Shown here one piece after another: positions 24,566 to 25,990 of a stretch of 33,883 bases of DNA. Under the pieces are notes generated by a model that saw nothing but the letters and a program-made list of their open reading frames with translations, was not told the origin of the DNA and ran no database searches. Source of the DNA: Armatimonadota bacterium (GTDB lineage: Bacteria; Armatimonadota; UBA5829); assembly GCA_012522555.1 (NCBI GenBank), contig JAAYKG010000012.1, positions 1 to 33,883 on the forward strand, read 5' to 3'. The stretch's first letter is position 1; each line of letters starts with the position of its first letter. A program made the translations under genes and the position numbers.

Positions 24566-24651
24566 TCGTAAACCTCATAACCCGCCCAATCAATCGGGCC
24601 ACAGATAAAAAATGACAGGACAAAAACTTTCACTGACATATTTACCAGATA

Positions 24652-24667
24652 TGGCACGAATTGTGCA
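24652..24667 (+). promoter_or_regulatory. Sigma-54 (-24/-12) promoter A
   Basis: TGGCACGAATTGTGCA versus consensus TGGCACNNNNNTTGCW; GG-GC spacing correct, one mismatch. Confidence 0.75.
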
Positions 24668-24677
24668 GCTTACTAAA

Positions 24678-24779
24678 CTAGAGACAACATCTTATTCTCC
24701 TTCCCAAAGCTTTAAGCTGGAGTCGAGGCTTTATTCGACCAAGGGATCCGCCTGCGGAAGACCGCAGGCGGTTTTTTTT
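24678..24779 (+). ncRNA. Predicted sigma-54-dependent small RNA A
   Basis: Starts about 12 nt after promoter A; 5' block AGAGACAACATCTTATTCTCCTTCC; GTCGA/TCGAC hairpin (24722-24739); ends in an intrinsic terminator; no credible ORF. Confidence 0.65.
24748..24779 (+). terminator. Intrinsic terminator of sRNA A
   Basis: CCGCCTGCGG AAGA CCGCAGGCGG perfect 10-bp stem followed by 8 T. Confidence 0.92.
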
Positions 24780-24815
24780 GCAAGAAGAAATCTTTACTGA
24801 TACAAATACCAGTTT

Positions 24816-24831
24816 TGGCACGATTCTTGCT
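24816..24831 (+). promoter_or_regulatory. Sigma-54 (-24/-12) promoter B
   Basis: TGGCACGATTCTTGCT, full match to TGGCACRNNNNTTGCW. Confidence 0.88.
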
Positions 24832-24841
24832 GTATAAATAC

Positions 24842-24962
24842 ACAGAGACAAACATCTTTTTTCTCCTTCCTTACAGTGTTATGGATTACTCGCTAGTTTG
24901 AAGGCTCCCAGCCTTCAACAAGGCGGCCCGCCAGCGGAAAAGTTCGCAGGCGGGATTTTTTT
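24842..24962 (+). ncRNA. Predicted sigma-54-dependent small RNA B
   Basis: Starts about 12 nt after promoter B; 5' block AGAGACAAACATCTTTTTTCTCCTTCC matching sRNA A; hairpin TTGAAGGCT-CCC-AGCCTTCAA (24898-24918); intrinsic terminator. Confidence 0.68.
24927..24962 (+). terminator. Intrinsic terminator of sRNA B
   Basis: CCCGCCAGCG GAAAAGTT CGCAGGCGGG stem (one A.A mismatch) followed by A then 7 T. Confidence 0.9.
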
Positions 24963-25036: not shown

Positions 25037-25990
25037 ATGAAAACAATCGGTGTCTTGACCAGCGGGGGCGATGCTCCAGGCATGAACGCCTGCATAGCAG
25101 CTATCGCTCAATCCGCGGAAGCTCGAAACTTGCATGTCCGCGGGATATTTTTGGGCTTTTCGGGTCTTGCAGAACATAATTGCATACCTGTAGGCGGCGA
25201 AATCGCCGGTCTTGCCAGAAGAGGCGGCAGTTTTCTCGGCACGTCTCGCAACGAGACGATCCAGCAGGCGATAAAGGATGAAGATTATCACCACTTGTTT
25301 GAGGCTTGCGGAATCGACGGGCTAATTGTGCTCGGCGGGGGCGGCTCTTTGCAAGCTTTGGCCGAATTCGCGGCCACCGGCGCTCCGGTCATTGGAATAC
25401 CCTGCAGCATAGACAATGATATAAGCTGCACGGACTATTGCATTGGGTTCGATTCCGCAGTAAATCGAGCGCTGCGGGCGATCGACGAAATACTGGACAC
25501 CGCGGAAAGTCTGTCGGACAGGGTGTTTTTGGTGGAGACTATGGGAGGAAACACAGGCCACATCGCGCTGGCTACGGCCTACGCCGCAGGCGCGGATGCT
25601 GTATTCATCCCGGAACAGCCTATGCCTATCGAGCGTGTTTCCCTACGGATTCGCGCAAAGATGGACATCGGCGGAACCCACGGCCTGGTTGTGTTGTGTG
25701 AGGACCAGGGCACATTTGAGATTCAACAAAAGCTGGAGGCGGCCATCGGCAAAAAGGTGCGCTTGACTGTGCTCGGGCATATTCAGCGCGGCGGCAACCC
25801 GACTTTTCTGGATCGCCGATTCGCCAGAGAGTTCGGTGAGGCTGCGGTCGATTTGATCGCATCCGGCCAAAGTTCCAAGATGATCGCGTATTCAAATGAA
25901 GCCTTACATGCCGTCCCGCTGACCGTAGAATTAGCCGCAGCCAAGCCGATTGACCTGATAAAATATCGCACAATCAATCGACTTGTATAA
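25037..25990 (+). CDS. 6-phosphofructokinase family protein (PfkA-like)
   Basis: TSGGDAPGMNA, SIDNDISCTDYCIGFDSA, VETMGGNTGHIALA, LGHIQRGGNPTFLDR. Confidence 0.93.
   Translation: MKTIGVLTSGGDAPGMNACIAAIAQSAEARNLHVRGIFLGFSGLAEHNCIPVGGEIAGLARRGGSFLGTSRNETIQQAIKDEDYHHLFEACGIDGLIVLGGGGSLQALAEFAATGAPVIGIPCSIDNDISCTDYCIGFDSAVNRALRAIDEILDTAESLSDRVFLVETMGGNTGHIALATAYAAGADAVFIPEQPMPIERVSLRIRAKMDIGGTHGLVVLCEDQGTFEIQQKLEAAIGKKVRLTVLGHIQRGGNPTFLDRRFAREFGEAAVDLIASGQSSKMIAYSNEALHAVPLTVELAAAKPIDLIKYRTINRLV

Follow-up and report, generated by a model that had tools for sequence, protein, structure and literature searches.

PEP-CTERM/exosortase systems carry out the sorting of matrix and surface proteins, dozens of them, in bacteria that form biofilms, and to our knowledge the control of PEP-CTERM genes outside Proteobacteria has so far received no explanation. 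For Proteobacteria, the excerpts available of Haft et al. (2006, PMC1569441) and of the work on Aquincola pepA (PMC9850573) describe a control by sigma-54 and the PrsK-PrsR pair, and those of PMC3333781 report sigma-54 control in Desulfovibrio too. The excerpts of Haft et al. (PMC1569441) also point out that, in Proteobacteria and elsewhere, the upstream regions of many such genes are unexplained. A literature search for small RNAs (sRNAs) regulating PEP-CTERM genes, covering sources available in part, returned none.

Transcription of the Qrr sRNAs is sigma-54-dependent. In Vibrio they are siblings under LuxO activation, as described in the accessible parts of PMC4211561. The alpha-r14/NfeR1 sRNAs of rhizobia carry an ultraconserved CU-rich anti-Shine-Dalgarno (anti-SD) seed, three copies of CCUCCUCCC per RNA, and silence transport and metabolic mRNAs at the translation initiation region, their transcription being repressed by NtrC and activated by LsrB (PMC10746234, in the portions at hand).

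The window, that is the whole stretch of 33,883 nucleotides analysed here, contains two tandem units that invite comparison with these systems. A preliminary description had read at this place two promoters with GG/GC spacing, 164 bp apart on the same strand, each with a shared 5' block 15 nt past the GC dinucleotide and then a GC-rich hairpin with a T7-8 tail, and rereading the positions bears out each of these elements. The sigma-54 promoter of unit 1, TGGCACGAATTGTGCA (24652-24667, plus strand; -24 GG and -12 GC, the latter at 24665-24666), is conserved in the family, and that of unit 2, TGGCACGATTCTTGCT (24816-24831, plus strand; GC at 24829-24830), in orthologous units. The block GAGACAA(A)CATC begins at 24681 and 24845. 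The predicted sRNAs span 24678-24779 in unit 1 (plus strand, about 102 nt, with a start predicted from the -12 element) and 24842-24962 in unit 2 (plus strand, about 121 nt, with a putative start at 24842; E = 1.2e-16 against the family model R1 introduced below). Intrinsic terminators close both on the plus strand, at 24748-24779 (CCGCCTGCGG-AAGA-CCGCAGGCGG, a 10-bp stem followed by T8) and at 24927-24962 (CCCGCC..GGCGGG, an A, then T7); the second has a mismatched stem and for that reason escapes a simple terminator scan, yet does fold. Both RNAs have predicted folds well beyond those of shuffled sequences (z = -3.4 for unit 1 and -4.7 for unit 2, with 0/200 shuffles as good in either case). 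The units are intergenic and without conserved ORF, the ATG frame of unit 2 running for 6 codons only. Taken one by one, the promoter boxes do not exceed chance in the ~34-kb window, with 16 loose matches where 18 would be expected; a chance origin is ruled out because promoter, 5' block and terminator are conserved as a unit.

This conservation extends well beyond one genome. A plain DNA search gave matches in 14 of 41 related genomes, whose kinship ranges from a shared genus to a shared phylum, and 21 aligned units formed the basis of the family alignment. In order, these have the sigma-54 promoter, GAGAAAAACATCTTTTTCTCCTTCC or a sequence close to it, a middle portion that varies, and a terminator, and about 48 units have TGGCAC-like and TTGC-like boxes in corresponding positions. 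In the class, the sequence model R1 matches 21 of 28 genomes, and eight of the 21 lie outside the training set. Beyond the class it matches one of 263 genomes of the phylum, over 43 nt that cover the promoter half only, and none of 37 genomes from other groups. Tandem copies are common, with three in G011 (C19) and G020 (C18) and two in G022 (C49), G026 (C9) and G016 (C65). In the 5' hairpin, two sister genomes have GGGAAAG/CUUUCCC in place of GAGAAAA/UUUUCUC, the single clean compensatory change, and shifted versions also occur; this covariation is suggestive, short of a formal test. In families f3 and f4 the hairpin is weak or missing. Rfam covariance models, including Qrr, GlmY/GlmZ, CrcZ and alpha-r14, gave no match at the gathering score, the best chance scores (15.1 and 13.8 bits) lying far under the cut-off; weak matches to narK RNA and RcsR1 (E = 2-4) were set aside as chance. 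Viral contigs gave no match to the f1 core with its downstream motif. In another class of the phylum, L012 and L019 (G030) carry sigma-54 boxes TGGTACGATTCTTGCTATATATAGG devoid of the RNA block, apparently before protein genes, and L146 (G217, likewise of another class) is a promoter-half match only.

The units are a conserved sRNA family not represented in Rfam, of a known mechanistic kind, the sRNA directed against ribosome-binding sites (anti-RBS), with a new predicted target class. The preliminary description had proposed a paralogous pair of sigma-54 sRNAs possibly undescribed in this lineage, and had suggested looking for rpoN and enhancer-binding proteins, for Rfam relatives, for conserved promoter-terminator pairs and for further copies in the genome. 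The proposal has held up on these points: among the genes of this genome are two for rpoN and two for full NtrC-type activators, Rfam has no match, and relatives keep the promoter-terminator units, tandem copies included. The link to PEP-CTERM ribosome-binding sites, set out below, goes beyond that description. In the window's own genome (G000) the two window copies alone fit the whole unit, a third match (C97) being devoid of the hairpin block.

Set against the described systems, as far as the available portions of the cited reports allow, these RNAs resemble the Qrr sRNAs in having several siblings per genome, a conserved core and, presumably, an NtrC-family activator acting with sigma-54. 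They show no sequence relation to Qrr at the Rfam gathering threshold, their genes are often in tandem where those of Qrr are dispersed, and their predicted targets are PEP-CTERM genes, whereas Qrr targets quorum-sensing regulators. Like alpha-r14/NfeR1, they conserve an anti-SD seed while the remaining RNA varies; unlike these, they have one longer seed that covers spacer and AUG as well, a sigma-54 promoter and PEP-CTERM genes as predicted targets. The three hairpins with unpaired CCUCCUCCC that mark alpha-r14 are absent from the window RNAs, which have a single CUCCUUCC core after the 5' hairpin.

The key to their predicted function lies in this core. The reverse complement of the conserved form CAUCUUUUUCUCCUUCC reads exactly GGAAGGAG-AAAAAG-AUG, which amounts to an ideal RBS followed by a start codon, and in the window the core appears as CATCTTATTCTCCTTCC (24688-24704, plus strand), the complement of SD, spacer and AUG, and as CATCTTTTTTCTCCTTCC (24853-24870, plus strand). 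When the core complement was searched in the 28 genomes with at most one mismatch, all seven hits at starts of ORFs of at least 100 aa fell on PEP-CTERM genes, a class of about 560 genes in these genomes and well under 1% of the total; nearly all other such sites are sRNA copies or sRNA-like units on the opposite strand. Forty sites with at most two mismatches were fetched, and 20 of them start ORFs of this length, 14 of which are PEP-CTERM genes. The predicted target proteins have the C-terminal PEP motif, hydrophobic segment and basic tail together with an N-terminal signal peptide.

An independent test took PEP-CTERM loci by protein family and not by RBS, with one gene-calling rule throughout. 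At a predicted duplex energy of -18 kcal/mol or lower, a cut-off chosen among five tried, 24 of 95 PEP-CTERM genes qualified against 1 of 416 others (p = 4e-18), the latter comprising 0/73 other signal-peptide genes and 1/343 remaining genes; the other 71 PEP-CTERM genes fall short of this strong-pairing cut-off. These p-values overstate independence, as the genomes are related. A control RBS pattern, GAAAGGAGGT-N5-ATGA, proved too rare (3 matches), and therefore shuffled cores and non-PEP genes served as controls.

Any anti-SD sequence pairs somewhat with every strong-SD gene, and the RNAs might be genuine sigma-54 sRNAs acting as general anti-SD regulators, among whose targets PEP-CTERM genes are prominent only through their strong purine-rich RBS. 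PEP-CTERM starts do have stronger SDs and pair better with the 16S tail (p = 3e-6), and some non-PEP genes, pfkA included, pair moderately with the RNAs; alpha-r14/NfeR1, from what is accessible of PMC10746234, acts in this way on many targets. We consider this explanation unlikely, since the advantage of PEP-CTERM genes persists when strong-SD genes alone are compared (mean -15.8 against -11.5 for the others, p = 3e-13) and depends on the 5' part of the core, whose pairing partners are spacer and AUG: when this part was shuffled and CTCCTTCC kept, 1 of 200 shuffles did as well. The absence of strong pairing among the other signal-peptide genes also speaks against general action, and so does the fact that the RNA is missing where PEP-CTERM proteins are missing, being present in 21 of the 24 PEP-CTERM-positive genomes of the class and in none of the four negative ones (p = 0.0017, a value that ignores kinship, three of the four negative genomes forming one genus). 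In the genome G006 the PEP-CTERM proteins, about 30 in number, belong to another subtype (VPEPATAAYALMGLGSLAGIKRRIRK), and there the sRNA, core-matching starts (0/9) and the palindrome discussed below are all absent (for example at loci L262, L285 and L292). Co-evolution of core and target, assessed by swapping RNAs between genomes, is a trend only, own-RNA pairing being slightly better (147/2000, p = 0.07).

Two PEP-CTERM genes of the window's own genome stand out as candidate targets. The start of the gene on contig C181 (GGAGGAGAAUAAGAUG) is predicted to form 16 consecutive pairs with unit 1 (-25.1 kcal/mol), and that on C138 (GAAGGGAGAAAAAGAUG) to pair with unit 2 (-21.3 kcal/mol). Either unit is predicted to pair strongly with both starts; the best fit to C181 is that of unit 1, in whose core (CAUCUUAUUCUCC) an A stands at a place where the core of unit 2 has U only. 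In the full-length fold about half of the core is predicted to be paired, while the CAU end and the CU step after CUC have an unpaired probability of at least 0.73 in both units.

Since the units lie directly upstream of a pfkA-like gene (25037-25990, plus strand; PFK, PF00365, E = 1.1e-82) in the window, and of pfkA in G001 and G008, they could in principle be leader or attenuator elements of that gene in place of trans-acting RNAs. We rejected this reading, which has very little probability: a promoter and a strong terminator belong to each unit itself, the pairing predicted with the start of pfkA is moderate and has interruptions (-15.8 to -16.6 kcal/mol), and these are the only three sampled genomes with this arrangement. 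Elsewhere single or tandem copies adjoin unrelated genes, among them YkuD, nitroreductase, asparaginase, DXP synthase, aminotransferase and glycosyltransferase. The position upstream of pfkA is incidental, and this neighbour stands outside the proposed system. A sigma-70 promoter that agrees perfectly with the consensus (TTGACA-18-TATAAT, 12/12; 24565-24536, minus strand) lies directly upstream of a divergent PPDK_N/PEP-utilizer gene.

A second line of evidence may link the RNAs and PEP-CTERM genes. Two nt before the -24 box of each unit lies a putative operator on the plus strand, a degenerate palindrome ACTGACA-TATT-TACCAGA at unit 1 (24632-24649) and ACTGATA-CAAA-TACCAGT at unit 2 (24796-24813), and this is exactly the distance at which the inverted-repeat signal of family f1 reaches its maximum. 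The unit 1 palindrome is related to the CTGGTA-N4-TACCAG of PEP-CTERM upstream regions. With at most one mismatch, the fetched class DNA (767 kb) contains 24 occurrences of this motif against 1.7 expected at equal base frequencies. These lie mostly upstream of PEP-CTERM genes (L230, L247, L266, L306, L345, L357, L375 and others), plus the one at the unit 2 sigma-54 box. Among the 95 PEP-CTERM genes, 11 have it within 400 nt upstream, as do 5 of the 416 other genes (p = 1e-5), one of these five cases being the window site itself; four scrambled versions gave at most one match in this comparison. We regard the palindrome as a putative binding site that would tie the sRNAs and their PEP-CTERM targets to one candidate regulator.

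The sigma-54 machinery of the genome includes, on contig C174, a cluster of histidine kinase, activator and rpoN. The activator scores 423 bits against TIGR02915, the PEP-CTERM response regulator model, and the kinase 96.6 bits against TIGR02916; both lie below the respective cut-offs of 502.6 and 300 that define PrsR and PrsK, and the activator is therefore not filed as PrsR. Two PEP-CTERM genes of this genome, on C13 (TGGCACGAATATTGCA, L379) and C58 (TGGCACGTTTATTGCG, L376), have upstream sigma-54 boxes, and the end of the C58 gene adjoins the second rpoN in convergent orientation. At the matched PEP-CTERM targets, sigma-54 boxes directly upstream were found at 0 of 17 loci; sigma-70-like TTGACA..TATACT elements are often seen instead. 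The likeness to PrsK-PrsR, as presented in the excerpts of the reports, is the link of sigma-54 and an NtrC-type regulator to PEP-CTERM genes, with C13 and C58 carrying the box. The difference is that sigma-54 activates PEP-CTERM genes directly in that system, whereas here sigma-54 sRNAs appear directed against the starts of genes many of which have sigma-70-like promoters.

Other RNAs of the class also bear the core. A second RNA family in f1 combines core CATCTTTTCCTCCTTCC and a terminator with a conserved GGCACAACTATAGTGGCACAAACAAC before them, does without a sigma-54 box, and is likewise complementary to the PEP-CTERM start region (L217-L224, in G010, G003, G002 twice, G008, G013, G011 and G004). 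Three terminator-bearing candidates, L236 (G000:C25, in the window's own genome), L228 (G015) and L249 (G010), have CATCTTCTTCTCCTTTC or a similar sequence followed by ACCTCC, hence two anti-SD blocks, and strong predicted pairing with their own PEP-CTERM starts. In family f5, L226, L227 and L235 (G027, G026 and G020) show CCGATAAT..GAAAGCACCATCTTTTTCTCCTTTCC and a terminator, again without a sigma-54 box.

That terminator-bearing RNAs devoid of a sigma-54 box share the core makes competition between RNAs conceivable, and the 5' arm, GAGAAAA, is similar to the spacer of the targets; the window RNAs might activate PEP-CTERM synthesis, or compete with the other core-bearing RNAs of the same genomes. 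Such a role seems improbable to us, as the predicted pairing spans the SD and AUG of the target, which would normally block initiation, and the other RNAs bear the same strand and not its complement, so that they would compete for targets and not be sponged directly.

We favour instead, with a probability of about 0.77, a system in which sigma-54-induced sibling sRNAs block the translation of PEP-CTERM (exosortase-sorted) surface proteins. An NtrC-type activator would probably open both promoters, from which sigma-54 RNA polymerase would transcribe two sibling trans-acting sRNAs, each with a short 5' hairpin bearing the core CAUC-U(n)-CUCCUUCC and an intrinsic terminator at its 3' end. Hairpin and terminator probably protect the RNAs, while the exposed CAU end and CU step would invade the target start region. 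The core would then mask SD, spacer and AUG together on a subset of PEP-CTERM mRNAs; ribosome access would be blocked and the synthesis of the targeted proteins would fall. The sequences themselves show the conserved units, the complementarity and its clustering at PEP-CTERM starts, and the occurrence of the RNAs together with PEP-CTERM proteins; transcription, pairing in vivo, repression as its outcome and the identity of the activator are what we infer. Because the matched targets have no sigma-54 box and often TTGACA..TATACT-like promoters, they would otherwise be made, and the boxes at C13 and C58 suggest a change of surface repertoire over a simple shut-off. A further and more tentative possibility, which we hold to be somewhat doubtful, is a sigma-54 surface switch: C13 and C58 would be turned on directly, the tandem sRNAs, a lineage-specific family tuned to a common RBS, would turn off sigma-70-driven PEP-CTERM genes, and one protein reading CTGGTA-N4-TACCAG would act on both arms.

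An sRNA seed matching PEP-CTERM translation starts provides a testable post-transcriptional layer in the control of these genes. It also represents an anti-RBS sRNA family whose regulon is predictable from sequence in uncultivated bacteria. Should the surface switch prove true, membership of a protein-sorting class would be what defines this sRNA regulon.
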